DNA of 64,000 nt from Daphnia pulex (lineage: Eukaryota > Arthropoda > Branchiopoda > Diplostraca > Daphniidae). Both the position numbers and the translations under genes were made by a program. The notes under the pieces were generated by a model. That model did no database searches and was not told where the DNA came from. It was given only the letters and a program-made list of their open reading frames with translations. Within the stretch, counting starts at the first letter, position 1. Every line of letters starts with the position of its first letter. The DNA lies in NCBI RefSeq assembly GCF_021134715.1, contig NC_060018.1:6279501-6343500 (forward strand). Direction: 5' to 3'. Positions 34,170 through 64,000 of the stretch are shown piece after piece.

Positions 34170-34637
34170 TCAAGACGAATATTTCGAGGTTGCTGCAGGA
34201 CGACGAGGCGGGTCTTCTTTCTTGGACGCAAAGATGTAACTTTCAAGAGCATGCTCCACTAAAGCGGCCAAAGAAACCAGATATCTGCGTTGCTCCGATG
34301 TCAAATAACGATCGAAATCAAAGTCGCTGCTGTTTATGCTGTTTATGCTCGCCGCGGTTGTCGTCAAGTCGCGTCTCTTGCGTCCACCGAATGGAAAGAC
34401 GCCAGCTGCAGAGAGAGCGGGAACCGTCAAGCCGAACGCTAAAATTCCGGCGAAAAATGGGATCGGAAGGAGCATGGCGAGTAGGTGAGCAGCCGAAGTG
34501 ATCAAGGGAACTGGCTCCTCGCTGGCTGGTTGTAAATCACGAATAGCGGAAGTTGCGGAGGAACATGCGGATGTCATCAACGTAACCAAAAACGATAAGC
34601 AGAGCCACCAATTCCCTGGCCATCTTGTCGCCTTCAT
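34170..34637 (-). CDS. Tandem family member 2 (shortest), unknown function
   Basis: 155 residues in one exon. The signal peptide GNWWLCLSFLVTLMTSACSS matches the GNWLL start of the other copies, but here the family's ATGGCC codon is out of frame and an ATG 14 bp upstream is used instead (MKATRWPGNW). Most of the middle region is missing. A hydrophobic segment (LLPIPFFAGILAFGLTVPAL) leads into GGRKRRDL and FDFDRYLTSEQRRYLVSLAA. It lacks the cysteine pair and the last exon, ending SKYSS. This is a compact derivative of the family; a decaying copy is possible, but the frame is intact from ATG to stop. Confidence 0.75.
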   Translation of the reverse strand: MKATRWPGNWWLCLSFLVTLMTSACSSATSAIRDLQPASEEPVPLITSAAHLLAMLLPIPFFAGILAFGLTVPALSAAGVFPFGGRKRRDLTTTAASINSINSSDFDFDRYLTSEQRRYLVSLAALVEHALESYIFASKKEDPPRRPAATSKYSS

Positions 34638-34890
34638 TTCGAATTAGAAAATCAAACAAATAAACAAGACATTTTTTGAAATTATATTGTCAGTCTCTGC
34701 AACTTTATGGTTGATATAAAAGTTCCTATTTTTAAAAGTTACCATTTAACGAATCTCGGAATCAAAATTTCAGAATCCAATCACGATATAAATGCGGATG
34801 AATCTGAAGCTGCTGCGCGCACAATTTATATTCTAATATCACGGCAGCAGCAGATCAGTCTGTTGTATAACCACCGGATTAAGGAGGACT

Positions 34891-34925
34891 GTTCAATCTC
34901 AGCTGATCCTCCTCAAACGACTGTA
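34891..34925 (-). promoter_or_regulatory. Shared promoter-like block, family gene 2
   Basis: Minus strand ACAGTCGTTTGAGGAGGATC then AGCTGAGATTGAAC, a version of the family block with a small insertion. Confidence 0.5.
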
Positions 34926-36105
34926 TAGGGAAACGTCCCAGCCTGGTAGTTTCTTCTATACTAACCGAGAGCTGCTGCTGCTATAGCCACGTGCGCCACT
35001 ATAAATAATTATGACCTAATGCCCGCCTCATCCAATTCGTTCTCCTTTCTAAATTCAGAATATTCCCTCCTCCTTCTTGTATACACATATCTCCACCCCT
35101 CCTTCTCACCTAGTTGGCACTCCACTTCTTGCCGCTGGGAGTCGAATTAAATCAATAAGTCTGTGTCTATATACTGGCTGGTTGCGGATGGATAAGACTT
35201 TTCAAAGGCAAGCGAATGTTGTGCCGTGTACGAAAACAAACAAAGGGAAAACAATTGCAGCACTCGGTGACAACTGAGAGAATGACAAAGAATAGGTTTC
35301 CTTTTACTGATTTCTGCTCAGCAACGAGGAATGCAAAAACAAAAAAACCCAACAAAACAAATGCGCGGTGAATGATTTTGAGCCGTCACAAAATAAAGAC
35401 TCTCGCACGCGAAGTAGCAAATGGTGTTATTGTAATATCCAGTAATATTGTCTTCCCTTAATACTCTTCTCTGTTCTCTCATCCGATCATCGTTTGGATC
35501 CAATAGCAATCCTTTATATGTCTAATAAGCCTCGTATGGTCGTTTCTCGATACGCTACCGTATTATTAGAGTGTGCGTGCTGAAAAGAATTAGCAGTATA
35601 CTTTTGAATTTACTGTAATAATGCTGATGACATCTTTTTTTATTTAAAATAAATTCCCATCAGCAGAATGCGAATAGATGCAGGTATGGTTCTGATTGAC
35701 GATGGGCGGCTGATATTCTGCTTTGATATGAATTTAAAAGAAAAATAGCGGTATCTCTTTTTATTTTCGTTGGTGAAATTTCCCTTTGAGGATAAAATAC
35801 ATAACATTTCAAGGTAGACACGTAATCAAAAAGAAATATGCGGATGCGCTTTCCTAGTCATGAAATAAATAAATGAGTTGCAGCTTTGACAAAATTATTG
35901 TGGCTTTACTTTACTGGAAGATGAGAATTAAATATTAGCAAGGTATGTTTGGGGGTATATTGAACAATAAATAAGGTCTGGGATTATTGAGACTGGCAAA
36001 TAAATTATTATGGTCGGCACAAAGTTACTACACGAAAGAAAAGAAAAATGACTACTAGATGGAATGTCAAACTATTTAAAAAAGAAGGATTATGATATAG
36101 TGTGT
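34926..36105. other. Intergenic between family genes 2 and 3
   Basis: AT-rich, no supported gene. The right end is 3'UTR and flank of family gene 3. Confidence 0.5.
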
Positions 36106-37183
36106 TCATCCAAAGATGGGGAGACTGCACTTCATTTTTCTGCAATCGGAGCTGCCACTGCGGGCGCCAATTTTGAACGCAGCCAGCATCTCGGACATGT
36201 ACGCAGGAACTAATGGTTCCAAATACCTATACGCAAATAGAACATACTCTGTATTAATGACACCTATGTTCGGCTCATTTTACAGAAATATCAGCAAACG
36301 CTTACGTGATGATGGGCTCGGTGAACTTGGCCCATCGATTAGTCATTTGGCCAACTTCGCAATAGTATCTCTCGAGGCAGGAGTCGTCCTTATAAGCGGT
36401 CATGTAGGTATCGAGCACACTATCCAGGCGAGCAGCTAATGATGCCAAAGTTGTGGACTGTTCAGGTGGCAAAAAGCGATCGAAATCAAAGACTTGGTTA
36501 TTGAGATCCTTGGCGGCGAACAAGTCCCGGCCCACTCGTCTTCGCCCGAACGCCGACACGGCAGGAAAGAGAACTAGGATCACCGAGAAAATCACGAAGA
36601 GGGCGGCAGTAGCAGCTACGAGGGGTGAGACGATGGCGAGTCCGATGGCCGTCACCGCACTGCTGATAGCGCCGAACGCCCTGTCAGCTATTTCACGCCG
36701 GCTGGGAATATTTTGCCACACTCGAGATGCGGCGGCCGCAGCGCTTCCGTGATGAGGCCTGATGTAAGGCAGCAACTCTTTCAGCTTTGAAGAATACTTC
36801 TCGACAACTTTGGGCATCTTGAAATAGAAAGAATTCATATAATCGTCCAGGTTGCTGTACAAAGACGCATCGGAAACGGAATAAGCATCCGGATGGATCG
36901 ATTGCTCAACGGGTGGAAAAGCAATACGGCTCGGTAATAATGCTTGTGATGCAGGATATTGCTGCGCCATCGGATATTTAAAATAGTTAGCGTGTGACGC
37001 ATCAGATTGGAGCGCGTGACCTTTTCGATTTTTAATGATCTCCGGGACAGGATTGACAGAATTTGTCAAAGCGGACTTGGAATCCGGGCCAGGATCAGTG
37101 GGAACGGTGCTGGCTGAGCTTGCAGCTGTTAATGATGCAGCTAATAATAAGCACAGTAACCAACTTGACGATAATCTAGCCAT
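36106..37183 (-). CDS. Tandem family member 3 (long type), unknown function
   Basis: Two coding exons, 37183-36306 and 36226-36106; 332 residues. Signal peptide about 1-22 (LLCLLLAASLTAASS). A low-complexity S/P-rich region to about 105, then KMPKVVEKYSSKLKELLPYI, ASRVWQNIPSRREIADR, a hydrophobic segment about 177-212, the basic FGRRRVGRDL (213-221, furin-like), VFDFDRFLPPEQSTTLASLA and the pair C269/C275 (DDSCLERYYCEVG). The last exon adds YLEPLVPAYM, GARSG and a second pair in DCRKMKC. A 93 bp 5'UTR intron (37283-37191) precedes the ATG; that acceptor argues against the in-frame upstream extension. Possibly a secreted protein released by cleavage after RRRVGR. Family unnamed. Confidence 0.85.
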
Positions 37184-37422
37184 TTTCCACCTGAACAAAA
37201 AAACAAATAAATAAATAAATAAAAACGAGCATAAACAACTCGTGCACAAATAAAAACTTACTAGTGGTAATTAAATTAGTTACCGTAAAAAAGGAATAAT
37301 TATCACAAAACTTTAGCAGCAATAATCCAATTCAGATTTTTTAAATAGAACGAATTCCGTTATTTAGTATTAAGTTCACTAGCACACCAGCAGACGGGAA
37401 TGAGGTAACACCAGATTGATGA

Positions 37423-37456
37423 CAAGTTCACCTTTGGCTGATCGTCGAACGACTGC
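37423..37456 (-). promoter_or_regulatory. Shared promoter-like block, family gene 3
   Basis: Minus strand GCAGTCGTTCGACGATCAGC then CAAAGGTGAACTTG; near-consensus copy of the family block. Confidence 0.55.
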
Positions 37457-38254
37457 TGGAAAATGTCCAGAGTCTAGTGGTCTTCTTGGTCTATCAGTCG
37501 AATGCCCTTAGCAAAAACATGTTTCTATCTTTGTATAGTCGTTCCAATGCCCGGCCTCGTCCAAAATTCACGGGCGGTTTCAAAGATTCGAAAAGATTCC
37601 CTCCTCTTTCTTTCTCCACTCACGTCCAACCTAGTTGTTACTACTCACGTTAACTTCATGGCATTTCGCTGTACAGTCACGCAGATCATGACATTTTACT
37701 TTACCCGAGTTATCGCAATGACGCAATCTAATAAATTATTTGCGCAGACAATTCCAAGGTGATACTTTTGATCATTTTCGATACACAAAAATTTACTTCC
37801 GGGCAATTAATTGACTTGTGTTCACATTTGAAACTCAATTTGTTTAGAATAAAGCATTTGCATACACACTCGGCAAAAACAATTCTGACAAATCAGATTT
37901 ATTATCTGAAATAAGACCCAAAACTTGTTATTTGCTTTCTCCTTTCCAGCACACACACAATTTTCTTGAGGCTTTGATTTGTATTGCTGCGCTTTCTTAA
38001 GTTATCTGTATGAGTTTTTCTACTGATGCGTGCTGTTACTACCCTCAATCCATATTTGAAACAAGTGTGACAAGCGGGGAAGAACCGTCCAAAGAAAAAG
38101 CTCTTATCTATATCGTGTCGTTTTCCTCGTGTCGTTTTCCTAGAACAAGCTAGTTATCCTGTTTCCATCAAAGTCTTATTTTAGCCTATTATTTTCCAGG
38201 CTAACAAATCGAACTTGACAATTTTTGGCAAATTAGATTAGTAATCAATCTCAG
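37457..38254. other. Intergenic between family genes 3 and 4
   Basis: No supported gene. Its right end borders the relic last exon of gene 4. Confidence 0.5.
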
Positions 38255-38292
38255 AATTATGGTTCACGCAGGAACTATTAGAGAGGCTCCGG
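38255..38292 (-). pseudogene. Relic of the family last exon behind gene 4
   Basis: Minus strand GGAGCCTCT, then a small insertion that brings stops, then GTTCCTGCGT: the same two 9-10 bp blocks that encode EPL and VPA in the last exon of genes 3, 5, 6 and 7. The remainder of that exon, including its two cysteine codons, is not found. Confidence 0.5.
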
Positions 38293-38355
38293 GATTCTAC
38301 GAAACAGGGTAAATAATCTTGACGTTGACTTTTATTTTAATGTTTTTTTATTTAT

Positions 38356-39216
38356 TTATTTATTTTTAAATTTCTTAAACAGTGGGAATGGGCTCGGTAA
38401 ACTTGCCAATCCGGCAGGCTTCATTCGTCCAGCTTGACAAGGATATTTCTCCAGACAGGTGTCTTTCATGTTCACATTTTTAGGGTAGGTTTCGAGCACA
38501 CTATCCAGTCGAGCAGCTAATAATGCTAAATTTCGGGATTGTTCAGCCGTCACGAAATTATCAAAGCCAAATACTTCGTTGAGATCTTCCGCGACGTCAA
38601 AGTTCCGATCCATACGTCTTCGACGACTTGCTGCGATACCAGGAAAGGGGATGCCAAATTTTCTTAAGATGAAAACACCAATAAAATAAGCTACAACAAC
38701 GGGACCAAAGACGAGAATGTTGGAAGAAATAAGATTCGACAATTCAGGACCGAACAGATTGTTGTCAGTGGCAATAATATCAACTATTTCACGTTTGCTG
38801 GGAATGTATCGAGATGCAGCAGCATCTCGCAGGAGAGGCATCATATTTTTGAGCTGTGAGGAATACTTCTCGGTAAATTTGGGCATCTTGGAAGAACTTA
38901 TATATTTGTCAAAGTTGCTAGTTGAGTAATAATGCGGACGGAATAACTGCTGGCCGGATGGAAAAGCAATCTTGGACGATAATGATAATGGTGTCGGAGA
39001 TTGCTGTGCCACCGGATATCTAATATAGTGAGAATATGACGCATCTGATTGTTGGAGCGGATGACGTTTTCGGTTTTTGAGGTGCTCGACGAATTTGACC
39101 AAAACGGGTTTGGAGTTCAGGGTAGGGTCAGTGGCACCGATGGTCGAAGATTCAGCAGGTGTCAATGAAGTAGCTAATAATAACCATAGTAACCAGTTTC
39201 CCAAAAATGTAGCCAT
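38356..39216 (-). CDS. Tandem family member 4, 3' end altered
   Basis: 286 residues in one exon with intact frame from MATFLGNWLL. Signal peptide, KMPKFTEKYSSQLKNMMPLL, hydrophobic segment about 160-190, ASRRRRMDRN, VFGFDNFVTAEQSRNLALLA and the pair in DTCLEKYPCQAG are all kept. After QAGRM the reading is shifted against the family: the neighbouring frame would give RIGKFTEPI, but the actual frame gives GLASLPSPFPLFKKFKNK and stops. The donor ACGTAA of the other copies is changed, so the last exon cannot be joined. Either a functional copy with a new tail or an early pseudogene. A 5'UTR intron at 39310-39230 is kept. Confidence 0.75.
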   Translation of the reverse strand: MATFLGNWLLWLLLATSLTPAESSTIGATDPTLNSKPVLVKFVEHLKNRKRHPLQQSDASYSHYIRYPVAQQSPTPLSLSSKIAFPSGQQLFRPHYYSTSNFDKYISSSKMPKFTEKYSSQLKNMMPLLRDAAASRYIPSKREIVDIIATDNNLFGPELSNLISSNILVFGPVVVAYFIGVFILRKFGIPFPGIAASRRRRMDRNFDVAEDLNEVFGFDNFVTAEQSRNLALLAARLDSVLETYPKNVNMKDTCLEKYPCQAGRMKPAGLASLPSPFPLFKKFKNK

Positions 39217-39426
39217 ATTCCAGTCTTGACTGAAAAAAAAAAAGAATCAAATCGACATTAACAACCATACTCAAAGAAATAAAAATTCGTGTAGTATTTG
39301 AATTAGTTACCGTAAAATAAGAAAAATCACAAAAGGTACTTCACAACAATTTCAGATGAAGAAGTGACAAATGGCAGTTAACTGGCCCGCAAATGGGAAT
39401 CAGTCAACACCAGACTGCTGTGGATG

Positions 39427-39458
39427 AGTTCACCTCCGTCTAGTCTTCGAAAGACTGC
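39427..39458 (-). promoter_or_regulatory. Shared promoter-like block, family gene 4
   Basis: Minus strand GCAGTCTTTCGAAGACTAGA then CGGAGGTGAACTC, with GATATACT about 33 bp upstream as a TATA-like site. Confidence 0.5.
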
Positions 39459-39859
39459 TGAAAAATCGCCTGAGATATTCTTCTTAGTATATCAGCTCAA
39501 AGCCAATCGAAAAACATGTTTCTCTCTCTCTATGCATGAATATGAGTTTTAATCACGACCTCGTCCAACGCGGGGAAATCCGGAGGATTTAACTTGAGGA
39601 AAGGGGATAACTCCCCGCTTTCACTTCTTCACTTACAGCTGCTCACCTAGCTTTTTCTCACCTTATTCATCGTGGCACTCTGTTATACATGTTTGGCCAG
39701 CTTTCGTCCCATTAAGACTCCAATGCGAGTATTAATATTAAATAAAAAACTCGATAAAAAATATGAAGGCTTAACGCGCAACTAAATAACTAGCTACTGG
39801 TAGCTTTTGATAGTATTCAAGTATATTTCAGGGAAAAACTCGAACAATTTTCAACATAT

Positions 39860-40931
39860 TTATCCATCGAAAGGAAGTTTGCATTTCATTTTGCTGCAAT
39901 CGGCGTTGCCACTACGAGCACCGTTTTTGAATGCCTCCAGAATTTTGTACATATTCGCCGGAACTAGAGGCTCCAGTAACCTAAGCAACATAAAGAAATC
40001 CGTAAACGTAATACGTGTCGTATTCCTATAACGATATTGGTTGCAAATAGAAAAACCTTTACGTGATAATGGGCTCAGTAAGCCTGCCAATCCGGCTAGT
40101 CATTTGGCCACCAGCTTGGCAAGAATATTTCTCCATGCAAGTGTCGTCCTTATAAGCAGTCCTGTAGGCATCAAGCATTCTATCCAGACGAGCAGAAAGA
40201 GATGCTAAATTTCTAGATTGTCCAGCCGGCAAAAAAATATCAAAATCAAAAATTTCGTTGAGATCCTCCGCGATCGACAACTTGTCGATCGACGACAAGT
40301 TTCGGCCCACGCGTCTTCGACCCACTGGTGTGAGACCAAAGAAGAAGTTAACTAACAACGTTAAAACAAAAGCAACTAAAAAAATTGGCCCAAAGATGAA
40401 TAAGTCAGGAGTAAGAAGATTCTGCAGAGTAGTGAATATTCCGAATGCTGCTCTGTCAGCTATTTCACTTCTGCTTGGAATAGTTCGCCAGACCCGAGAT
40501 GCAGCGACTGCAACATGAGGTTTCAAGTTTATAGGCATCCGATTTTTGAGCTTCGAAGAATATTTTTCTGCCTGCAGTTTGAGCATCTTGATAGAACTCG
40601 AATATTCGTTCAATTTATTGTATGAAGGCGCGTCAGGAATCGAGTAAGTATCCGGATGGATCAATTGTTGGGCAGATGGAAAATCAATATTCGGTGATAA
40701 TGGTAGTGATGTAGCAGATTGCTGTGACATCTTATATCTAACATAGTTAGCGTGTGACTCATCAGATTGGAGCGCCTGAACTTTTCGGTTTTCGAGGTTC
40801 TTGACTGATTCAAAGAAAACGGGTTTCAAATCAAGGGCAGGATCAGTAGAATTGATGGCCGATGGTGCAGCAGCTGTTAGCGACGCAGCTAATAAAAAGG
40901 ATAGCAACCAGCTTCCTGATGATCTAGCCAT
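39860..40931 (-). CDS. Tandem family member 5 (long type), unknown function
   Basis: Two coding exons, 40931-40063 and 39980-39860; 329 residues. Same order as member 3: signal peptide (LLSFLLAASLTAAAPS), YSSKLKNRMPINLKPHVAVA, ASRVWRTIPSRSEIADR, hydrophobic segment, VGRRRVGRNL, IFDFDIFLPAGQSRNLASLS, DTCMEKYSCQAG, and last-exon LLEPLVPANM with GARSG and DCSKMKC. It is very close in sequence to member 6. A 62 bp 5'UTR intron (41006-40945) precedes the ATG. The donor of intron 2 is AC|GTAA, so a retained intron would end the protein at the junction. Confidence 0.85.
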
Positions 40932-41141
40932 ATTTCAATCTTAACTAAACAAATCAAAATGAACATTTGAAACCACACCATGCAAAATGAAATTGAATTT
41001 AGTTACCGTAAAATAGAAGAATAGTCACAAAAACCTTGCAGGTAAATTCAGATTTGAAAGCGACGAATTCGGAATTCCACTATAGTAAGTTATTCACTAA
41101 CCTACAAAAATGGGAATCGTTTAACACCGGATTGATGAAGA

Positions 41142-41173
41142 AGTTCACCTTTGGCTGTTCGTCGAAAGACTGT
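41142..41173 (-). promoter_or_regulatory. Shared promoter-like block, family gene 5
   Basis: Minus strand ACAGTCTTTCGACGAACAGC then CAAAGGTGAACTTC, with GATATACT about 33 bp upstream. Confidence 0.55.
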
Positions 41174-41689
41174 GGAAATCGTCCCAAAGAATCTTCCTAG
41201 TATATCAGCTGAATGGCCTTAAAAAACGGGTTTCTAGCTCTCCACGCATAAATATGTGGTTTAAACCCAACTCGTCCAATACGCGGAAGAATCGAACAAT
41301 TTATTTTCTGTCGTTTCTTCGTTGACCTGGGTTTTATAACGTTTTTATTGGCATTTCGCTATGTAGCTTCAGAGATTTAACATTTAATTAAATTTTCGGA
41401 TAAATTTATATCTTCAAAAATACATATACATTCCAAAAATATGACACGGAATACTTTTTTTTCAAATCATTAGAAGAACTCAATCTCAGAGTGACGGTAT
41501 TTGTATTTAGTACACATTGATCAGGTTCCTGGAACGTAATGAATATAAAAGCAAGACCAGCTTGCCCTCCATTGGGAAACGAAGTAGACTCTGATTTGAG
41601 TCTCATTAAATTAAAAAATAAAGGCTGGTAATGTGCAACGAAATAAACTAGGTAGCTGTTGAATTATTTGAGGGTGAAAAACGTTGTTC
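41174..41689. repeat. Duplicated flank, left copy
   Basis: This sequence is nearly the same as 42982-43489 (for example GACACGGAATAC, GATCAGGTTCCTGGAACG and GTGCAACGAAATAAACTAGG occur in both). The copies are about 1.8 kb apart, marking a recent tandem duplication that made genes 5 and 6. Confidence 0.8.
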
Positions 41690-42738
41690 TTATCCGATGA
41701 AAGGAAGTTTGCATTTCATTTCGCTGCAATCGGCGTTGCCACTACGGGCGCCTTTTTTGAATGCCTTCAGATTTCTGTACACATACGCCGGAATTAGAGG
41801 CTCCAGTAACCTAATAAGAAATGTAAGAAATCCGTAAACGTATTCCTATAACGATATTGCTTGCAAATAGAAAAAGTTTACGTGATAATGGGCTCAGTAA
41901 ACCTGCCAATCCGGCTAGTCATCTGGCCAGATTGGCAAGAATATTTCTCCATGCAGGTGCCGTCCTTATAAGCAGTCATGTAGGCATCGAGCATTCTATT
42001 CACGCGAGCAGAAAGAGATGCTAAATTTCTAGATTGTCCAGCCGGCAAAAAAAGATCAAAATCAAAAACTTCGTTGAGATCCTCCGCGATCGACAAGTTT
42101 CGGCCCACGCGTCTTCGACCCACTTGTGCGATTCCCGAGAAGAAGTTTCTTACCATCAATATAACAAAAGCAACTAAAAGAATGGGCACAGAGATGAATA
42201 AAGGAATGAGAAAATTCAGCAGAGTAGTGATTGTTCCGAATGTTACTCTGTCTCTGTCAGCTATTTCACTTCTGCTTGGAATAGTTCGCCAGACTCGAGA
42301 TGCAGCGACTGCAACATGAGGTTTCAAGTTTATAGGCATCCGATTTTTGAGCTTCGAAGAATATTTTTCTGCCTGCAGTTTGAGCATCTTGAAAGAACTC
42401 GAATATTCGTTCAATTTATTGTATGAAGGCGCGTCAGGAATCGAGTAAGTATCCGGATGGATCAATTGTTGGACGAACGGAAAACCATGAATATTCGGTG
42501 GCAATGGTAGTGATGTAGCAGATTGCTGTGACATCTTATATCTAACATAGTTAGCGTGTGACTCATCAGGTTGGAGCGCGCGACCTTTTCGGTTTTCGAG
42601 GTTATTCTTGACGGATTCGAAGGAAACGGGTTTCGAATCCAGGGCAGGATCAGTGGAATCGATGGCCGATGGTGCAGCAGCTGCTAACGACGCAGCTAAT
42701 AAAAAAGGTAGTAACCAGTTTCCCGATAATCTAGCCAT
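41690..42738 (-). CDS. Tandem family member 6 (long type), unknown function
   Basis: Two coding exons, 42738-41882 and 41810-41690; 325 residues. The start is the MARLSGNW ATG; an in-frame TTG upstream belongs to the 5'UTR intron (42820-42753). Domains as in member 5, with VGRRRVGRNL, VFDFDLFLPAGQSRNLASLS, GTCMEKYSCQSG and last-exon LLEPLIPAYV, GARSG and DCSEMKC. Differences from member 5 are concentrated in the hydrophobic segment, where it carries a two-residue DR repeat, and the VGRRR loop; elsewhere the two are close to identical. Confidence 0.85.
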
Positions 42739-42949
42739 ATTTTCAACCTTAACTATAAACAAATCAAACGAACATTTAAAACCACGCGAAGTAAAATTTC
42801 ATAACAAGAAAATTAATTACCGCAAAATAAAAGAATAGTCACAAAAACCTTTCAGTTCAGATTTGAAAGCGAGAAAGCGACGAATTTCGCTATAGTAAAT
42901 TCACTAACCTGCAAATCGGAATCAGTTAACATTGGATTGATGGCGAAGG

Positions 42950-42981
42950 AGTTCACCTTTGGCTGTTTGTCGAAAGACTGT
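42950..42981 (-). promoter_or_regulatory. Shared promoter-like block, family gene 6
   Basis: Minus strand ACAGTCTTTCGACAAACAGC then CAAAGGTGAACTCC; the surrounding 500 bp is also shared with gene 5. Confidence 0.55.
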
Positions 42982-43489
42982 GGAAATCGTCCCAAAGAAT
43001 CTTCCTAGTATATCAGCTGAATGGCCTTAAAAAACGTGTTTCCAGCTCTCTTTGCATAAATATGTGGTTTAATCCCAACTCGTCCAATACGCGGAAGAAT
43101 CGAGCAATTTATGTTCTGTCGTTTCTTCGTTGACCTGTGTTTATAACGTTTTTCTTGGCACTTTGCTATGTACCTTTAGAGATTAAATTAGATTTCTGGA
43201 TAAATTTACTGCTTCAAAAATATCTACACATTCGAAAAATATGACACGGAATACTTTTTTTTTCAAATCATTAGAAGAACTCAATCTGAGAGTGACGGTA
43301 TTTGTATTTAGCTCGCATTGATCAGGTTCCTGGAACGTAATGAATATAATAGCAAGACCAGCTTGCCCTCCATTGGGAAACGAAGTAGACTCTGATTGAG
43401 TCTCATTAAATTAAAAAATAAAGGCTGGTAATGTGCAACGAAATAAACTAGGTAGCTGTTGAATTAGTTGAGGGTGAAAAACGTTGTTC
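42982..43489. repeat. Duplicated flank, right copy
   Basis: Partner of 41174-41689. It lies upstream of gene 6 and runs into the last exon of gene 7, just as the left copy lies upstream of gene 5 and runs into the last exon of gene 6. Confidence 0.8.
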
Positions 43490-44562
43490 TTATCCGATGA
43501 AAGGAAGTTTGCATTTCATTTCGCTGCAATCGGCGCTGCCACTGCGGGCACCGTTTTTGAATGCCTCCAGCTTTTTGTACATGTACGCAGGAACCAGAGG
43601 CTCCAGTAACCTAAGAAGCGCATAAAAGAATCCGTGAAATTATTCTTCTGATGATTTCTCTTACAATTATAGGAGAAAGTTTACGTGATAATGGGCTCAG
43701 TCAATTTGCCAAGCCGGCTAGTCATTTGGCCAGCTTGACAAGAAAATTTCTCCAGGCAGGTGTCGCTCTTGAATGCGCGCATGTAATTGTCCAGCACGTC
43801 GTCAACGCGGGCAGCCAACGACGCCAAAGTTCTGGACTGCTCCATCGGCAAGAATCGATCGAAATCCAAAACTTCGTTGAGATCTTCCACAGCTGACAAA
43901 TCGCGTCCCATTCGTCTCCGGCCAAACGCCGACACGGCAGGAAAGAAGAAGAGGATCACAATGAAACCCAAGAAGAGAACGCTGGATATGAGCATGACGG
44001 GAGCCAACAGGACCAGTCCAATGGCTGAAGTGATATCGAACGTCCTGTCGGCCATTTGACGCATGCTGGGCATGTTTTGCCACGCTCGAGATGCAGCGTA
44101 TCCATAATGTTTGACGTAGGGCATCAGATCTTTGAGCTTGGGGTAGTATTTCTCGGCAACCTGCGGTAGGTAATAATACACGTAGCCCATGGTGGTTTCT
44201 TGTGGGTTACTGTACAAAGCTGGAACAGGAATCGAATGGGATGCCGGATGAACTGCAGGCTGGACCGCTGGCTGGGCCGCTGGCTGGGCGATGGACGGAA
44301 AGGAAACACCTGCTGCTGATCCTGACAACGCTACTGGTGTCGGAGGTTGGATTTGAGGTGCTTTCAAATAATTGGTGTACGACACATCAGATTTGAGTGC
44401 GTGACTGTCTCGACTTTTGACTTTTTCGGTCGATTCAGCGAAATTTTGCAATGCGGGCTTGGAATCGACAGCAGGATCAGCAGCAGCAGCTGCGTAGCAT
44501 GTAACTGCCATCGACGCAGCCAATAACCAGTACAGCAAACCATTTCTCGACAATCGAGCCAT
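43490..44562 (-). CDS. Tandem family member 7 (long type), unknown function
   Basis: Two coding exons, 44562-43685 and 43610-43490; 332 residues. Signal peptide about 1-25; a short tandem repeat AQPAAQPAVQPAVHPA at 92-107 is unique to this copy. YYPKLKDLMPYV, ASRAWQNMPSMRQMADR, hydrophobic segment 180-212, FGRRRMGRDL at 213-222, VLDFDRFLPMEQSRTLASLA, cysteine pair C269/C275 in DTCLEKFSCQAG. Last exon: LLEPLVPAYMYKKLEAFKNG, then DCSEMKC. A 79 bp 5'UTR intron (44653-44575) precedes the ATG. As first gene of the minus-strand array and one of the best-preserved copies it may be close to the ancestral form. Confidence 0.86.
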
Positions 44563-44787
44563 TTGTATCTTCAACTATATGAGCAATAGTAAAATTGTCG
44601 TCAACAACTATTACTTATTAAAGTTAACAAAAGCACTGGAATCATGTAGTTACCTTTTCAAAAGTTCAAAAGTTTTTTTTCCGAATTAAATCCCTTTTCA
44701 AATTCCAGATATAATTCACACTGTATTCCGTTTCAGTACAGGAAGCGGGATGAATAATAGATGGTAACTCCGGATTGTAGACAGACA

Positions 44788-49348: not shown

Positions 49349-52080
49349 TCATTGTTCATCTTCCTCGACCAATGCGCTCATCTCTTCTGCCAAAGCGTAA
49401 TATTTATTGGCCAATCTTCCTTTCATGGCGGCCATGGCTGAATCGGCTGCGTTACTGAAGTAATCAGCTGGCAAAACGATATCACAACATTTTCAATCAG
49501 ATTCTAATATCACCAAAAAAAGAAGAGGAGAAAAAAAAGAAGAAAATATAGTACCGGCTTTCGATGGATTTTTGTCTAGTCCGTGTCCTCCATCGCGGTA
49601 CATTTCCCCCAATCGGCCAAGTAGTTGATAGGTCGGATCGTCCATAGTCCCATCATAGTTTCCCTCCTCGTCGCTTGTTTTTACGGCCTCCACCGCCTCG
49701 ATGTACCAGTAAACCGATTCGGACCAGGAAACGGAACGGGTACCTGTTTGAAATTTTTTTAAATAATTTTTTAATAATAAATCTTTATAAAAAAACAGAA
49801 CGATTTTTTTTGAATTTTGAAACGGGTACCTAAGCCTGTGCCAGTATCGTACGCTTTGGCCAAATACACTATTGCAGCACGATCACCAGCGGCTGCTGCC
49901 TACAAACCAAACAATTTTAAAATTACCTTAATAACCGGGTAATGAATCAAAACAAAACTTACCATTCGCATGTAATCGACACCCATGTCAAAGTTGTGAT
50001 CGGTTTCTTCCAAAACGAGATCCGGTAAAACGTCGTGTGGAAGATTCAAAGCAACTCTTGCCATGGTTATAATTGCTTCGAGATTACCGCAATCAGCAGC
50101 GTGACGCAGATGATACAAGGCAGCTTCACGGTCGTATCCCGTCGAATCGGGTTCAGTAAAACGTTGCATTTCATGGTACTTTGCCAGATCCAAGTGAATC
50201 TGACCCAAGACCGAACCACCCGTCTTTTGTTTGCGCCTTTCGTCAGTATCGTCGCCTTCTTCTTCCTCGGCTTCCCACAATTTTTTCCTAGCTTCCACTT
50301 CAGCCATAACGCACGACGAGCGTGTTTTCTTATCTATTGATATTCTGTTAAGTGTTAACATTGTATGTTAACATCAAAGAAATGTAATTTTCTTTGTAAA
50401 AATTCCATGTTACCTGAAAGCGACTCGATCTGCTTCTTCAGACTTTGAAACAGACCCAGAACTCGCTTCCGAGAACAATCGAGGACGCCGGCGAGGAACA
50501 CTGTCCGAACTACTTCTATGAGAAGAAAAAAATTAAATTCATGTTTAATTAAATGTAAGGCTCGTATTTAAGTTTAAACTGACTCGTTGTGATTCAATGC
50601 TTCCCAGTGAGTCGGAGAAATACTATTTTTCCCCACTGATGGGAGACGCGTGCGAAGCTGAATCCCTCCACAATCAGAATCATTGCCGTCATCTTCTACA
50701 ATGTCATTCGATGTCCATTCGCCTATGCTTTCTGTTAGTGATGCGCATGAACCGATGCTCGACGAAGACCTCATTCGGAGAAATTCGTGAAGGTGGGCTC
50801 GTTGATACCTTAGAAAGATTCACATTTGAATGTTATGGACACATGGTTTGCAAGAAAAAATGTTACTCACTGAGAAGGTAGGACGACTAAATCTTCGGTA
50901 CCGCGTGAAACGGTTCCGACTTCCTGATTAGGAGTACTAGGGAGTGCCGTTAAGACAGCGAGCTCAGAGGGTGCCAAATCAAATGGTGTCAATCCTAAGC
51001 TCGCACAAATTGAGTTGCATACATGTGAATGGAAGAACAAGGCCATTCCTTTGGTTCCAAGATTTCCATCGCCGTATTCAATACCTAAAAATGCGAAGTG
51101 AAGCAGAGTTACGTAAACTAACGATAAAAACGATAAAGATTATAAGTATGGTACCCGAGACTGTGTGAATTTGCGGATCTGTGTATAAATCTCCAACTCC
51201 TTGAACGTCCACGACCATCAGTTCGTGACCGGAACGTTCAAACGTAAAGTGACTGAATGCCTGCGGCGTATGGCGCTGAGCATCGTCGCCGAGCACGAAG
51301 CCAGAGTTTGAATTGTACTTGACATAGTTTCCTTCGATGAAATTTTCGATATGGTAAAGGGGTTTATCTGGACGATCAACAAACTCTAGGACGGCCATCT
51401 GAAAAAAATCGATTTGCTTAGGAGGGTGGTGTCTGTTGAATTCCTCGCCCCACAACTTGGTATCCATTTGTAGTTTAACTTCATCAAAATACACTTCACG
51501 AGGAGCAGGCTGAATAAAGCGTTTAACGATTGCGTTATTTGAATCGCGACGCCAATCCTGTATGAATTGAAATAAGTCAAGCTATTAGGAAGATGAGAAA
51601 ATTACAAAACCATCATACCTGGTTGTGACTAAAGTTGCTCAGTTTTTTTATCCGAAAACATTCTCTCATTGCGCCATGGGCAAATGATTCAGCCTGCATT
51701 TTTACAATAACTTGATCGATCACCCATTCTTTTTTCAACGCATTGTACCGATGGCGATTAGCATTTTCAATTGGGCAATCTTCTAAATGGAATTTCTCCC
51801 AGGGATCAGTATGACATCGCGCTTTCATTAATGCATGACGCCAATTATTTTGCACTGTTTGTTTATGGTTTTGTAGTTGTGAAGAAGAAATTGATGGTTC
51901 CCTTTTGCGTTTGGAACTCATACCCATGGCAGCAGAAAAATATTTCACTTGATGTCCATCTAGATGAACCTCAGGAAGGGTATGAGTTTGATCTCCATTA
52001 GAAATATTCCATTTAATATCAGTGAATGAAATTGGTTCCAAGATTAAGTCCTCATGATGAGAAATCTCAGCAGTAGCCAT
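49349..52080 (-). CDS. EEF2K: Eukaryotic elongation factor 2 kinase
   Basis: Calcium/calmodulin-dependent alpha-kinase that phosphorylates eEF2 and slows translation elongation. Nine coding exons: 52080-51619, 51557-51155, 51084-50871, 50808-50584, 50515-50414, 50344-49963, 49899-49830, 49743-49555 and 49467-49349; 721 residues (human 725). Calmodulin-binding segment NNWRHALMKA with W80, kinase block GAMRECFRIKKLSNF, KRFIQP, LWGEEFNRHHPPKQ, TPQAFSHFTFERSGHELMVV, GVGDLYTDPQIHT, and the zinc-site H309/C311/C315 in SHVCNSIC. A Ser-rich regulatory linker is followed by SEL1-like helical repeats and the conserved end MAAMKGRLANKYYALAEEM. A 5'UTR exon probably ends at 52589 (AAAG|GTAAAT) and joins at 52166. 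Exon 4 must end at 50584 (GA|GTCAGT); a later GT would break frame. Confidence 0.95.
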
Positions 52081-52649
52081 GATTATTGATTGTTATCTTA
52101 ACAGTATTGTGATTAGGCAGTGATCACAGTAGGCAGCTTTTGGCAGTTGTTGATGTATTGGGTTTGCTGGAAAGACAAAGACATCACCTTTAAAAAATAA
52201 AAATAAATGTAATTAATACAGATATCATAAAACATGTTCCTCTGAATTATGAATAGAACAAAAAAAAGAACATGATAATTTAAATATAGTTTAAAAAACA
52301 ATTTTGGCACATATTTTCAAGTATTTCTACTGGCATTTTCCATACAAATTGTGAAATGTAGTCCAACTTGAGAGAAATTTTAACTAACGTTACAAAAATA
52401 GCTCGCGTACACGGCAATGATAAGCAAACAAACGGTGTACGTGACATAACAGATACCCGCATATATTAATCTAATAATATACAGAGTCCTTGTGTGACCC
52501 AGTAATTTTCATCACAGTATACACATACACATTTGATATTAGATACACTACCACCAAAAACACATGCAATAGTTAATTCAAAATTTACCTTTGATCGCTT
52601 CCAGTTGTAAGTAAAATGTGAAGGATATGAATAACTAACACAAATGAAG

Positions 52650-53982: not shown

Positions 53983-56900
53983 TCAAGACGTGCCGCATGC
54001 AGAGCAAACGTTTTGTGACCACTGACTGGGCTCTACGTATTCCTGGACTCCGTACGAAGCGCTGACCGTGGTCCGTTTATCCCTTAACGCTCTGCAAATT
54101 CCAAACAGAGAGCATTACCAGTTTGCGTTACCAAAACTTCCGCCGCGCGCTGGTTGCGCAATTCAACCCAAATCTATAGACTAAATATACATACCTGGCC
54201 ACTTCAATAAAGGCAAGTTCGACGTTGAGACCAGTTTTAGCTGACGTTTCCATAAAGTTGACTTTGTACTCCCGAGCGAGTCTTTCGCCATCCTCCCGGT
54301 CTACAATTCGATCCTCGCTGTCACACTTATTCCCTGCGCGGAAAAGTTTAAGTTTTTGGCTTAGAAAGGGATTTCTACTTGCAGATGCGATTAATTCATT
54401 ATGCTAATGTGTAGTAGTAGCCTTTTCAACAACACTGTTTCAACAAACTTTGGGAAAAAAAAACTATCGCAAGTACCCAATAGCATGATGATGACGTCAC
54501 GGTGTGCGTATTCGTTGATCTCCGCCAGCCACGCGCGAGTGTTATCGAAACTTTTTCGATTCGTCACGTCGTAGAGGAGGAAGAGAGCTTGAAATGTGGT
54601 GGAGTATAGATCCCGTTTTACCGTTTTATAATGCAAAGTCAAAGGAAACGAGAACAAATGACTTTCAACGATAACAACTCAACAGGCTTCCGGTGGTTAG
54701 AGATAAGCTCATTATTTTGCAATTTTGTCGACATTTTTATTGTTTTTTGAAAAAAGATTCGTACCGTGGGCGTCGCGATAGTAGGCATGGGTTACGCTCC
54801 TAAACCTTTCCTGTACCAAAAAAAGAAAATAGAATTAGATTTTCCTTGATTTGAATAAGTTTTTTAATTATTTTGAAGTAAAAGCGATGGCGAAAGATGT
54901 CGACTTACTTGGCCGGCGGTGTCCCAGATCTGTAACTTAACTTTGGCCCCGTCCACGACGAGTACTTTATTCTAAAACAGAAAGTACATAAATAGACGAA
55001 AAACGATTACTGAAATTGAATTAGTGAGAGCGAATGCGAGAGACTCAAGCTATAGATAAATCCAACGTTTGAAGAGAAGTCCAGAGGACCGAATAACTTT
55101 GTGCCATGATCACAATGGCAATAAAGGCCCGGCCAAAATCAAATTCCACGACAGCACTTAAGCAAAGAGACACTCTTTCGACGTCCAACTGCTGGTTATT
55201 AGTACATATATAGAGGCAACTTATAATGAAAGAGGAGCAGACGGTAGGTAGTAAAAAAGAAAAGAAAAATAATCATAGAAGCCCAGTTTGCAAACAATGC
55301 AATTTACCCTGTAATCGATACCGATCGTAGCGATGTAAGAGCCAGACATGAAGGCTTTGTCTTTGAAGCGAATCAAGAGGCAAGTTTTACCCACCCCCGA
55401 ATCTCCCAGCAGCATCACCTGGACATAAAGACGTCAGAGATACGATCACGAAGAGCGGATGATAAAGCCTAGCTCAAGTATTAGGACTGGATTCAAAACA
55501 GAAGGCGGTCGTCTGCCGGAAATACTGGACCAAGCTATAATAGGCTCTACCTTAAACTGGGCGCTCGTTTGCTCATCTTCGCTGACGGCCGAGGGTTTTC
55601 GGAAATTGTAATTCACGTTATTGATGACATTGAGCTGCCCTGGGGGAGACTCCTTGAATTTGGAACGAAACGAACCGCCCCTAATTTGAATAAATCGGTA
55701 GGTAGATCGATCGGACGGCGGCTCTTTGATGATCGAACGATTTGGCACTGCCTGTGATTTCAAGTCGCTACCGAACTGAGTCAGGGTCAGCATTTTATTC
55801 GCTTGCGTCGGGTCTTATCTTTGGTTTAATTAATTCAACTTAAATAAAAAATTAAACAATGATTGAATCCCAGAATTGAATGGCCCCAACAGACCCGAAA
55901 TAGAATGGAATGAATTAAATCGATCGGAGCTGGTATGATATGTATACAGCAATATAACCGCGTTGCGTGAAAGTGTTTTGAAGTGTCTGACTCTTGGACG
56001 ACAACTGACGCTCGACAACCGGCGAAAGGAAGTGTCTATGTCTCGACGACTCGGCCTGATTAGGTCGCCCCGGAGAGAGGGTGCGAGGCAAGGGAAAACA
56101 CTTGTGTGTCACACCCAGCAGCCAGGCTGTTTTTCACTTCATCCCCACCTAGTAACCTCAATTGCGTACATATACGCTCCTCCCTGCAGCACTCTGAGCG
56201 AGTCACGGCTGCAGTTGGTCGAACGTGAATGCGGACGAGAGAGACGACGCGGAACATCTGTGTGACTGAAGGAAACACGCGCGGTTACCAACCAAATATC
56301 TCCCTTCGATCGATTTGAAAACTTGTAATACCTAACGATTTTCTCAAAACAATGACGAACGGGGGAAGACAAGAAAAAAAAAGAAACACAATATTTGAGT
56401 AGCTTTCGGCTGTGATTCACTATACAATTCAGGTAAACTTCTTCAGTCCTGAATTCTATAGATCAGAGTGCTTGTGTAAGTGACGTCATCACGACTTTGA
56501 GCCGTTTTCTAGAACTGTTTGCCTCAGGTTACTGCTGCTGCTACACCAGTATCGATCGAATGGTACAGTAACATTTTTCGTTTTCTTTTAAAAAATCTCT
56601 CTTAAACATGTATACATTTCCCTTTTTAGTATCTATTTCTTTTAAATCAAGAAGTTTTTAATTTGATTTGTGCTGTATTTGCTTTCTATTTTATTACGTT
56701 AAGGGCTAATCAATTGATAAAAAAAATAAAGTTTCAAGTGGTTGTGGGCGGATACATCGTAACCTATGAATATCAAATAGAAGGGCACATGTAATATGTA
56801 AATTGCGGAACGACTAGAGCTTACTGTGAAACCGATGCCGACAGTAGCAGCGAATGAAGATGGATGGAAAGTCCCTGTGTCGAATTGAACGAGCAGCGAC

Positions 56901-57324
56901 GTCTTGCCCACGCCGCTGTCGCCCACCAGAATCGTCTACGCGCGTCCACAAGATAAATATCATCAAAAGATGCTGGCTGTCCGGCGTGCTGGATTGCACA
57001 AGTCCGTGTACTATAAGCCGGATTACTTACCTTGTGAAGAATTTCCTCGGAAGGGAAATCAGATGACAACGGAACGGGCTGAGGTGTCGGGACGGTGTAT
57101 CCCCGGTAGCCGGTGTCGTTCACCTCCTTCCGCACTTTCAGTTCGATCGGATGAAGTTGGCGGTGATCGTAGCGAGAGTGAAACGATTTTGACGGATCAA
57201 AGTCGTCTTCTTCAAAGACCTCGTCATCGGGTTCGTCCAATCCCATGCAGGCAAAACTTTTGTGAGCCTCTGGCATACCATCCGACGGCGTTTCGTCGCC
57301 CTCTAGAATAATGGGTCTGTCCAT
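53983..57324 (-). CDS. RAB26: RAB26/RAB37-type small GTPase with two alternative 5' modules
   Basis: Rab GTPase of the group linked to secretory granules and synaptic vesicle autophagy. Five shared exons: 54971-54909, 54810-54765, 54587-54477, 54333-54195 and 54091-53983. They encode [20 protein letters not shown] (switch II), [23 protein letters not shown], the GNKCDS guanine motif, [15 protein letters not shown] and a tail ending NVCSACGTS. Two upstream modules, each phase 0, can join at 54971: A (57324-57031 plus 56935-56825) giving 290 residues, and B (55793-55551 plus 55418-55308) giving 273. Both carry GDSGVGKT. The last exon is inferred from frame, from VQEYV, which recalls the DYV motif near the end of human RAB26, and from an in-frame stop. 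The tail has cysteines in CSAC rather than the usual CC or CXC. Confidence 0.9.
55308..55793 (-). other. Alternative 5' module B of the RAB26-like gene
   Basis: Exon B1 (55793-55551, 81 codons) starts [12 protein letters not shown] and is basic with S/P-rich stretches. Exon B2 (55418-55308, 37 codons) reads [18 protein letters not shown] and ends TIGIDYR, the normal Rab26/37 form. It should have its own promoter between 55794 and 56824, inside the intron of module A. Confidence 0.85.
56825..57324 (-). other. Alternative 5' module A of the RAB26-like gene
   Basis: Exon A1 (57324-57031, 98 codons) starts [13 protein letters not shown] and is strongly acidic ([14 protein letters not shown]). 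Exon A2 (56935-56825, also 37 codons) reads [18 protein letters not shown] and ends TVGIGFT. Same length and phase as B2, so A2 and B2 are duplicate, mutually exclusive exons. A TTG upstream of the ATG is in frame but is not a normal start. Confidence 0.85.
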
Positions 57325-60300
57325 ATCGCCAAAGTTTTTTACCAATAATTCCGTGTTCGGTTTTATGCGCGCAAAATTGCCCCTTTTTCAAATGCAAATA
57401 GACGAGGACTTTGGAAACAGTTTGGACCGTCGGATGCCTTAGTTTTAAGTGCTTTCATCAATGCGAAGGGATTCAGACAAGTAGACCCAACGTATACTCG
57501 ATCAATATTTATCCATTGGCCTAACAGCGGAACGCGCTCAACTCAATTCAGTCGATAAAACAATCGGAAAAGCGGATCTCGTTAATACGCTTCTCTGCAG
57601 CACTCTGCAGTAATCCAGCGGATTTTCGGCGGCCGGTCGGTTTGAAAAGTAAAAGGCGAAATCAAACAACAACAAACCGTTTCAAAATTGAATACGCAAA
57701 GAGTTAAAAAATACAGCGAAATTGATTTGGCACACCTTCAAGGACCCCCGGGCCGAGATTTTCGGATCGAAGACGCGAACGAGCGCAAGAAGAGGATTGC
57801 GGTTGGCGAAACTTGACGGAAGTTCGGTCAATTCGATACTAAAACAAGTGAATAGTGGTGAGTCAGAGAATCGTGTGGCGCGCAGGAGTAATGCGGAGAG
57901 AGTATTATACTTTGCTCGCTCGCCAAGATGAGGCTGTACTACACACGGTATAGAACGTACGCTATAAGGCCCGGCGGGAGTAGGAGGAGACTCGTACACA
58001 CAACTGGGTCGATGCACCGGGCCAGAATGGAAGCGAGTCTCCACTAGCAGCCAGATGAGCAAAGTGTATAGAGCCCTGTGTTGTCGCGCCGCACAAAGTT
58101 AGGTTTGACTTACTGAGCCGGGCGGACGAATCATTGGCTACTCCCAGCTGAGCATCGATCGTCTTCCCTTCTCACTTGCCCATCTTCCCTTTTTATCGCG
58201 CTACGGTACCATTCTCTGTCGCTGACATGTCCCTGATTTGACGAGATGGGATGCGCTCGACTCTAAGATGCAAAAGACGAAAGCTGACAAAGAAATAGAG
58301 CCGAAGAAGCCCGTGATCAAGCGAATGGATATGCGACAACAGCTCACAAAATTATATGAAAAGCTTCTCGGCTGCTGTCATTTGAATCTTTGAACAAGTA
58401 TACCTAGTAGCTACACACAAATGATTTCGTTTGTTCTAGTCCGCATATTGGGACCGACGACGAAAAGCGCATCTGCTGTGCGCTCCGTAGATCGAAGAAG
58501 GTGAATCGATCGATATTTATTTAGGAAAATAAAAAAGTTTTCACAGTTTTGTCGATAAATTAGTTGTAGCGAATGTACAATGATCACCAACTTGTTCCTT
58601 TCTCCGCTTTTATTTTTTAGGTACTTTTCAGGATCTCGATTTTCAATCGATTGACAATGCTATAGTGATTAGTTGGCGACCCGCCGGACCCGGCAACTGA
58701 ATCGTCATGTTTTGGAGAAGAACTTAACTTATTCCATTTTAATTCCTCTAGCTGACGTACACAAGTGGAAGAAATGTTTGACGTTTCAAGTTTTTTTTTG
58801 TCATTATCGAAAGTGAGACTGGTGATTTATTTTCTATTCTGCGGCTTTTCTTTGTTGGGTAACGCAATAGAAGAGTTTTGCCGACGAACGAGGCACTCAA
58901 GTTGGAGAAAATCGAATTAGGCAGAAAAGCTTATTCTCTCCTTTTTCCTTCGCGTACATATAGGAGAACCTTTTTCTGCGCGCTCTCTAAGAGCTACTTC
59001 AGATCACCGACCTTTTCCCAGCCCAATGAAAATATCGTTTAAAATTAATTTCATTATTTGCAGCGCCATTACTACATATATACTCTTTGCGCCAAGCCAT
59101 TTTGTCTCTGCGTTATGTTTCGTTCGTCTTGGGTATTTTTTTACAATTCTCACGAAACGATTTATCTCTTTGTTGTTTAAGAGCAGCAACAAAACACGGG
59201 ACATGAGGATTTAGCAAGAATTCCTGTTTGTCTCTCTCCCGTCATTCATGGTCGTAATTGAAATATTGGCGAGATGTGCGGTTGATCTGTTGTTGCTAGG
59301 TAACCGCGTGGTCGTTTCTAGATAATTTACCTTCAAATAAAAGCGGAACGGCAAAAAAAAAAAATAGTAAAGACAAAGTATGGCTTATAATAAAAACCTT
59401 TGGCCTGCGCAATTATTAAGGTTAAGCGGATAGTGATTATAAAACTTTACTGTGCAACCCACGAAACGGACTAATATTACTACGGCAATGCCGTGGTGGT
59501 AATAAACTTATTTTGATGTTTAGTATACGCAACGCATCGCATTATAGCGCGTTAATGTATAAGAAAGGAAATAAGATATACTACACGCTAAAACAACATA
59601 ACGATCTCATCGTACAGTTATTCTTACTTTCTGTGTACTTTCCGCTTACATAATTATAGGAAATGAAATGGAAAGGGGCCAACGACTGATGCGAGAGCAT
59701 CAACAGATGAAAAAATATGACGACAATGCGCATAATAATAAGCGGCTTTTTTTTAAAGTTGCCACCATGAAACTACAATGTACATATAGATCAAGCTGAG
59801 ATTTAATCTGCTGAGCGTATTTATAAACTAAAAAGTCATGCCCGAAAGCCGCAATAATAAAATATGTAAAATCTGGATTTGTTACTTGAAATCCTTCGTG
59901 ATGAAAAGTGAATATCCGAGCTTGAACAACAGAAATAGCTGTCTCTTATGGTTATATAGACAAGTAAAATCTCTATCCATAAATAACAGTTTTTATCAGA
60001 CAACATGTTTAAATTTCAAAAAGCATATAACGACAACTTGGAGAGCGGACAACTGGAGAGCAAAACAAACGCCCAAAGCCAGCCAAGAAAAAACCAACGC
60101 AGCTAGCTCTTGGCTTTTCGCTTGTTCCGCTCGCTTTATATATTGACATTTCCACTTCAGCTTATAATATGAAAGCTTTTAATCCTACACAATGATTATT
60201 TGAAATGGCTTTCAGAGTGTGCTATTAGATGCAGGCTCTTTGAATCTCTGGCGTTCGCTTTATATTCAACGGGCCCAATTGTCGGGCTTTAATAGAACGT

Positions 60301-62735: not shown

Positions 62736-64000
62736 TCAAACACACGGTTGAGGGCTCGTCGTCCGTAACGGGATACTAGGCGAAGAATCACGATGGTACG
62801 TCGGATTAGAAGCGATGATGGGCGTGGAACGATGGTAGTGCGTTGTCATCATTCGCTGTGGATTACATATGTTTCCTTGGATTTGACAAGTTTTGCACGG
62901 AGTCTCGATGATGGACGGTTGGCGTGTGAGAGGCACGGGGTTTTGATAATGGCCAAACGAGCAATGATTCCTTTCATTCTTGAAACTAATGTCGACTCCG
63001 TTATTCAGTTGCGGCACCTTTGATTCGTAGTCTTCTTCCGGGGTTGCTGGGCAGTCGCCAAGCAGCCACGTACTCGGAGATGTGTCGATAGGATCCAACT
63101 CTGTTGGCGACTGGACGTTGTCTAACATGAGCGGAATGTCACGCGGCGTCTGTTGATCGACAACCAACGGTTCCGAAGGGATGGATGGTGTCTCTGCTTC
63201 AATGGCAGTCAAACGGCCGCCTCTAGTACGCCAAGGCTCTTCACCAACGAGCCAGTACGTCATCATTTCACCTTTGCCCTGTCAAAATGATCAAAATGAG
63301 TTCAACTGATTCACAATAATCGCGGTAGAAAATGAGCCGCTTACCCGAATGGGAGTCATTCCGCGCTCTTCAATGATGTAACCACCTAACCGATCCAAAA
63401 GCTCTTTGGTGGCGGCGGAAATGTGAATTCGAAGAGCTTGTCCGGATGATTCCATTCTGGACGCAGTGTTGACCGTGTCGCCAAAAAGACAATACCTGGG
63501 CATTTTCAATCCGACCACTCCGGCAACGCAGGGGCCGGAATGAATGCCAATGCGCAGCTTGAGCGTTTCTCCCGGTCGATGTCGAATGTGGAAGTTGCGT
63601 ATCTCCGACAACAGGTGAAGGGCTAGTGAAGCGATTTCGGCCGCGTGATGGTCGCCGTTACGAATGGGTAAACCGCTGGCTACCATGTACGCGTCGCCGA
63701 TCGTCTCCACTTTGTAGGCGTCGTAATTTTCCAGGATCGAATCGAATAACGTGTAGAGCTCGTTGAGAAGGCCAACCACTTGCAGCGGTGTGCTCACGGC
63801 CGATAGCGACGTGAAACCGACGATATCGCTGAAATAAATCGTAACCGAGTCGAAACTTTCCGCTTTCACAGGTTCTCCTCGTTTCAGCGATTCCACCACA
63901 GACCTGTTGGATTTTAATTCTCAGATTAATATCATGTTTCTAAATTTAAATTATTAAAAAGCGAATTACTTTGGTAAGACTCGATGCAAAAGAGCTTCTG
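62736..64000 (-). CDS. Receptor-type guanylate cyclase, C-terminal part (cut by window edge)
   Basis: Membrane guanylate cyclase making cGMP. Three exons: 64000-63970 (partial), 63903-63345 and 63278-62736. The first gives [10 protein letters not shown], the linker entering the catalytic domain. Then [20 protein letters not shown] with the metal-binding Asp, [52 protein letters not shown] and ISAATKELL, as in natriuretic-peptide-receptor-like cyclases. The last exon starts [16 protein letters not shown] and carries a Pro/Ser/Thr-rich tail of about 165 residues ending SPQPCV. The extracellular and kinase-like parts lie to the right of the window, so the exact receptor subtype is open. Confidence 0.93.

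Follow-up and report, generated by a model that had tools for sequence, protein, structure and literature searches.

A RAB26-like Rab GTPase gene of Daphnia pulex with two alternative 5' modules, each carrying its own P-loop and switch I exon

Can one Rab gene present two different recognition faces on a common GTPase body? The question is raised by a locus on the minus strand of a 64,000-nucleotide stretch of Daphnia pulex DNA (assembly GCF_021134715.1, contig NC_060018.1, positions 6,279,501 to 6,343,500; the whole stretch is called the window below, and positions are counted from its first letter). Here two start exons, each followed by its own P-loop exon, precede a run of common exons. 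If both forms are made, what catalogues list as Rab26 or Rab37 may be a pair of switches that differ in their partners, and a screen for effectors run with one form would miss those of the other. What makes the locus interesting is that the arrangement is probably very old and that the switch I of its A type is unusual.

Gene layout

The gene occupies positions 57324 to 53983 of the minus strand. Its nine coding exons form two alternative 5' modules (A1+A2 and B1+B2) and a common part (C1 to C5):

Exon A1, 57031..57324, minus strand: 294 nt, 98 codons, start exon of module A; open frame ending ...EEILHK in phase 0
Exon A2, 56825..56935, minus strand: 111 nt, 37 codons, ...ATVGIGFT; encodes the module A P-loop and switch I and has a Pfam Ras match
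Exon B1, 55551..55793, minus strand: 243 nt, 81 codons, first exon of module B, with phase 0 at its ...SAQFK end
Exon B2, 55308..55418, minus strand: 111 nt, 37 codons, ...ATIGIDYR; encodes the module B P-loop and switch I and is RAB26-like (27/37)
Exon C1, 54909..54971, minus strand: first common exon, NKVLVVDG...DTAGQ
Exon C2, 54765..54810, minus strand: common exon of 15 codons, ending in phase 1
Exon C3, 54477..54587, minus strand: common exon, ...IIMLLG; genome match on contig C2:6333963-6334106
Exon C4, 54195..54333, minus strand: common exon starting NKCD; genome match on contig C2:6333691-6333879
Exon C5, 53983..54091, minus strand: last common exon, ALRDKRT...NVCSACGTS, with a TGA stop; genome match on contig C2:6333486-6333611

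The four module exons have phase 0 at their 3' ends, and A2 and B2 both read directly into C1. The predicted proteins, 290 aa for the A form and 273 aa for the B form, are stop-free inside. All eight introns are of the GT-AG type, with GT at 8/8 donors and AG at 7/7 acceptors. The introns within the modules (95 nt for A1-A2, 132 nt for B1-B2) are in the same range as those between the C exons (98, 177, 143 and 103 nt), while A2 lies 1406 nt from B2 and 1853 nt from C1. In their phases, open frames and splice dinucleotides, the exon coordinates and junctions given by the sequence-only reading proved correct, and the phase-0 open frames bear out its description of two start exons of 98 and 81 codons that each lead into their own 37-codon exon with GDSGVGKT. 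The two-module gene is thus confirmed as a real and sound observation. The same reading had described an acidic and a basic N-terminus, which agrees with the computed charges: A1 contains 10 K+R and 23 D+E (pI 4.5), B1 12 K+R and 7 D+E (pI 10.0). Different targeting of the two forms, as had been suggested on these grounds, might follow from this difference in charge.

Assignment to the RAB26/RAB37 line

Both predicted proteins matched the Pfam Ras family (PF00071) with their G domains covered, at 190.9 bits for A and 195.7 bits for B (cut-off 21.6). Human RAB26 (PDB 2g6b) was the top solved structure for both, among the best 60 of 796 (A) and 813 (B) matched chains. Among the matches listed it scored 246.5 bits versus 187.0 for the next chain with the A protein, and 271.6 versus 201.6 with the B protein; no RAB37 chain was found among the best 60 of 796 and the best 60 of 813. 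The front part of A together with C1 alone also retrieved RAB26 as the best chain (75.8 versus 60.7 bits, best 60 of 326 matched). The common exons, counted from C1 up to the beginning of C5 (...ARALR), are identical to 2g6b in 92 of 123 residues. We therefore retain the designation RAB26-like, RAB26 being the best solved-structure match of both predicted proteins.

The solved human form differs from the Daphnia pair in being of the B type: over the 37 residues of the P-loop exon it shares 27 with B2, but only 22 with A2. A2 in turn has 22 residues in common with RAB26, 20 with Sec4 and 18 with Rab8A, and the A2-B2 identity (18) is no closer than that of B2 and Rab8A (21). Another feature of this exon is the distance between the P-loop and switch I. 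The number of residues between GK[TS] and T-x-G is 18 in A2, B2 and RAB26 and 17 in Rab8A and Sec4. The comparison was extended to a prokaryote genome collection, in which 136 stretches matched the search pattern, 115 encoded a relative and 80 were kept (79 archaeal, from Asgard groups as read, and one Atribacteria MAG); no animal relative was present in this collection, and viral contigs gave four pattern matches and no relatives. With every match taken in its own frame, the spacing was 17 in 77/77 parsed GTPases from these 80 loci, and by eye also in the remaining 3/80, which are without GK[TS]. Likewise, printed alignment ranges gave one residue fewer than the query in 59/59 other chains among the best 60 of 326 matched, many of these chains being repeat constructs of the same few Rabs. 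The extra residue before the switch I threonine, a feature found in this analysis with no published subfamily definition behind it, appears to be the strongest indication that A2 is a member of the RAB26/RAB37 line; simple identity across the 37 residues says less. As A2 is only slightly nearer to RAB26 than to Sec4 and Rab8A, its RAB26 origin rests mainly on this one-residue insertion and on its place in the gene.

Rab proteins usually end in a cysteine pair for prenylation, CC or CXC. The common C-terminus ...NVCSACGTS (53983-54010, minus strand) has neither; its cysteines are at -7 and -4, in a CXXC arrangement followed by three residues. Fly Rab26 presumably also has a CXXC-type end.

A single set of 3' exons

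Searched against the whole genome, the B protein had 46 exon-wise matches and the front part of A had 12; 7 and 4 of these, respectively, fell on the locus. The common exons were recovered at the locus with 76 to 88 percent identity; elsewhere, among the matches listed, those reaching the common part had at most 58 percent, and P-loop exon matches up to 64 percent. A second complete 3' set belonging to one of the modules, which the sequence-only reading had named as one finding that would refute it, was searched for genome-wide and did not appear among the best-scored candidates, exon C2 with its 15 codons being too short to show alone. The case for a single 3' set in the genome is strong, but not absolute. 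Within the 64-kb window, no third P-loop exon was found in a Ras-domain search (best 150 of 168 candidates scored).

Homology of A2 and B2 and the differences between the two faces

A2 and B2 are of equal length (111 nt) and are both in phase 0. Their identity is 18/37 at the protein level and 60/111 at the nucleotide level. The matching bases are distributed unevenly over the codon, with 23, 24 and 13 of 37 at the first, second and third position; the excess of the first two positions over the third was equalled in 417 of 100000 permutations, and a control with shuffled B2 codons gave about 10/37 matches per position versus A2. This pattern fits coding constraint, as expected if both exons have been under protein-level selection since the duplication. 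The exon duplication that had been postulated is therefore supported by equal length, by homology and by a constraint-like codon pattern.

As neighbouring homologues of 111 nt each in phase 0 with 18/37 identical residues, A2 and B2 have the layout of mutually exclusive exons. The human survey of such exons resembles the present case, in the part describing their layout, in that the exons are neighbouring and homologous, of equal length, and encode the same part of the fold in the same frame (PMC5740500). The difference is that in Daphnia either alternative exon is linked to a separate start exon, and that neither the frame nor close spacing enforces the choice. By its description of scope, that survey was confined to internal exons and set aside those overlapping annotated terminal exons, so that a pair linked to first exons would tend to escape it (PMC5740500).

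The P-loop GDSGVGKT is identical in A2 and B2 (0/8 positions differ). With region limits set by us, differences fall on 3/4 positions of beta-1, 7/11 of alpha-1 and 9/14 of switch I. The earlier description of the modules as swapping the P-loop and switch I thus holds insofar as the exon bearing the P-loop is exchanged and switch I differs, but the P-loop sequence itself is unchanged. Similarly, of the nucleotide- and effector-binding face that had been expected to differ, the effector-facing side changes, while the nucleotide contacts are probably the same because of the identical P-loop.

At the end of switch I, A2 reads GIGFT and B2 GIDYR: the Asp of the GI(D)F motif is present in B2 (GIDY) and is replaced by Gly in A2 (GIGF). 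In the Rep15:Rab3C structure, switch I residues V63 and I65 as well as F67 are at the interface and D66 makes polar contacts, according to the part of PMC9308819 that describes it. Aligned via the GIDF motif, the Gly of A2 falls at the place of Rab3C D66. The 77 parsed GTPases of the prokaryote collection have D in 73 cases, E in two, N in one and Q in one at this place, and Gly in none. From these letters we would expect the A and B forms to bind different effectors or regulators with unchanged GTP chemistry; with the P-loop and the entire C part identical, GTP binding and hydrolysis should be alike in both. The A-type segment of human RAB37 presumably also has Gly at GI(D)F. The residue at this place may define a module rather than the RAB26/RAB37 subfamily.

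Splice sites and the production of two forms

Splice sites between 58400 and 54850 (206 donors, 187 acceptors) were ranked by generic splice-site frequencies. On this scale the A1 donor AAG/GTAAGT was the best of 206, and the B1 donor AAG/GTAGAG took rank 14/206. B2 has an acceptor of rank 3/187 and a donor of rank 10/206, and the C1 acceptor ranks 9/187. The donor of A2 ranks 12/206; its acceptor is weak (rank 43/187), which counts against the two-module model. Acceptor-like sites are also present upstream of B1, at 55838 (rank 18/187), 56257 (rank 2) and 56265 (rank 8). All six exon combinations tested (A1+A2, B1+B2, A1+B2, A1+A2+B2, A1 alone and B1 alone, each joined to C) are in frame. The reading frame therefore does not force the choice between A and B, and neither does spacing, given the 1406 nt between A2 and B2. 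Further isoforms (A1+B2+C, A1+A2+B2+C and exon-skipped forms) stay open in frame and are permitted to that extent.

We consider it likely that the locus is one RAB26/RAB37-type Rab GTPase gene whose two 5' modules are used in alternative transcripts as follows. A transcript from upstream of A1 would use A1-A2, skip B1-B2 and continue with C1-C5, and a transcript from upstream of B1 would use B1-B2 and then C1-C5. The two could arise from two promoters, or from one promoter with an untranslated exon that chooses A1 or B1. By intron definition, the short B1-B2 intron would use up the only acceptor of B2; the fused B1-B2 would then be a first exon lacking any acceptor and be skipped in A transcripts, and A2, which removal of the 95-nt intron has already joined to A1, would be spliced to C1. 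The resulting forms would differ in the N-terminus, alpha-1 and switch I (Gly for Asp) and could recruit different effectors or regulators, with secretory or granule-type membranes as the probable site of action. A second promoter for B is plausible. It is favoured by B1 being a full coding start exon; given the acceptor-like sites that precede B1, an untranslated first exon common to both modules may exist instead.

The same sites are what a single promoter would draw on. Here ordinary alternative splicing would start either from A1 or from an untranslated first exon used by both modules, with an A1-B2 chimera as a third normal product. A1+B2+C is indeed open and in phase, encoding 290 aa, and the acceptor-like site at 55838 and the better ones at 56257 and 56265 could serve such a transcript. 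However, if A1 served both modules, the long coding start of B1, in phase with B2, would be superfluous, and joining A2 to 55838 leads to a stop at the third codon. We regard a single promoter as unlikely; it overlaps with the two-module model preferred above, so that the likelihoods attached to the different readings do not sum to one. That module A is the decaying relic of an old duplicate and no longer reaches the common exons could account for the weak A2 acceptor and for the unusual switch I end GIGFT, with Gly there in 0/77 parsed GTPases. Such a relic would hardly be expected to keep 98+37 open codons, an intact P-loop and intact splice dinucleotides, or the codon-position constraint between A2 and B2, and a presumed A-like segment of human RAB37 agrees with A2 in 32/37 residues. 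We consider decay of module A very improbable.

A Dscam-type pairing between selector and docking RNA was also considered and rejected, since nothing complementary to the sole repeat common to both upstream regions was found in the window (allowing up to 3 mismatches, the search gave 3 matches and no plus-strand one). This repeat, CAGAGTGCTGCAGRGA, lies at 57592-57607 and 56181-56196 on the minus strand, with AGCGTAT following after 0 or 2 bases; its two copies start 283 nt ahead of the ATG of A1 and 403 nt ahead of that of B1, respectively. Genome-wide it occurs in 6 places at up to one mismatch and exactly at these two only; a control with the reversed pattern also gave 6. The local score of the pair, 34, was reached by none of 300 dinucleotide shuffles (maximum 33). 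In real sequence it was reached by 8 of 861 pairs of window segments (B side 1/42, A side 0/42), a background of 42 segments that leaves out 31-46 kb and 53-59 kb and is applied to a repeat picked after being seen. As a common promoter element the repeat is weak against this background, and we treat it as a lead only. Between 53500 and 58500, no known RNA family was matched at gathering score.

Age of the pair and known counterparts

B2 shares more residues with human RAB26 (27/37) than with A2 (18/37), which would place the split of A and B before the divergence of arthropods and humans, unless A2 has sped up. Judged from these identities, the split is probably older than that divergence. A recent, crustacean-specific exon duplication would suit two exons of equal length only 1.4 kb apart, but the A2-B2 identity of 18/37 is lower than both that of B2 and RAB26 (27/37) and that of A2 and RAB26 (22/37); a faster rate in A2 could mislead here. 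The N-terminal segment of human RAB37, moreover, is reported to change (PMC9714508), and we give a recent origin a very small chance.

The part of PMC9714508 concerned with human RAB37 describes two splicing differences that alter the N-terminal segment, coding transcripts of 182, 186, 191, 216 and 223 aa, and four transcripts high in cerebellum, with three in other tissues. The likeness to the Daphnia gene, as far as that part goes, is that of one gene with a varying N-terminal segment and tissue-restricted isoforms (cerebellum versus others). A difference is that the predicted Daphnia proteins are longer, with 290 and 273 aa. The alternative human RAB37 segment presumably matches A2 in 32/37 and the standard segment B2 in 28/37 residues, which we treat as a lead. 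If so, the pair would be at least as old as the bilaterians and the Daphnia gene one more member. Drosophila Rab26 is, we assume, A-like. It resembles the present gene as an arthropod Rab26 and acts on secretory granules (PMC9813115); the relevant parts of that paper make no mention of its splice forms or switch I. In C. elegans, rab-37 is absent from the multi-variant genes named in the pertinent sections of a Rab survey, which do mention a short rab-37 isoform and present a tree built with one splice variant per gene (PMC3504004). The A/B pair may therefore be missing in nematodes.

The exon pair goes unmentioned in the relevant parts of three Rab surveys (PMC3425129, PMC3192815, PMC3504004). 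Within the openly licensed literature, as far as its searchable parts extend, no description of an A/B pair across phyla was found and the peptide strings searched occur in no paper; such a description may be published elsewhere. Since human RAB37 seems to be arranged in a similar way, the device is apparently old and not a novelty of this gene. Whether it amounts to an ancient, bilaterian-wide case of two Rabs in one gene is in our judgement evenly balanced. Such a gene would combine a common hydrolytic and anchor body with two exchangeable recognition faces, and its A face (GIGFT) would address a distinct effector class that catalogues with one isoform per gene have overlooked. A gene that has kept both faces in arthropods as well as in vertebrates would offer a clean natural experiment on the specificity residues of Rabs.

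Neighbouring features

Another small GTPase gene lies on the same strand about 45 kb past the end of the window (contig C2:6388683-6389307), with the P-loop exon GDGGVGKT...TIGVEF. Within the window, the next gene downstream on the same strand (51078-52092, minus) contains an alpha-kinase domain (PF02816, 146.9 bits, 51078-51578), and we take it to resemble eEF2 kinase. Seven open frames of 157-322 aa are present at 32299-44574 on the minus strand, and from 36 kb on many common 16-mers (at most one mismatch) recur there at a spacing of about 1.7-3.8 kb. This region is likely a tandem gene family; the two frames scanned (32302-33219 and 36305-37270) matched no Pfam family. Near the window edge, at 63294-63920 on the minus strand, a guanylate/adenylate cyclase catalytic domain was detected (PF00211, 214.7 bits).
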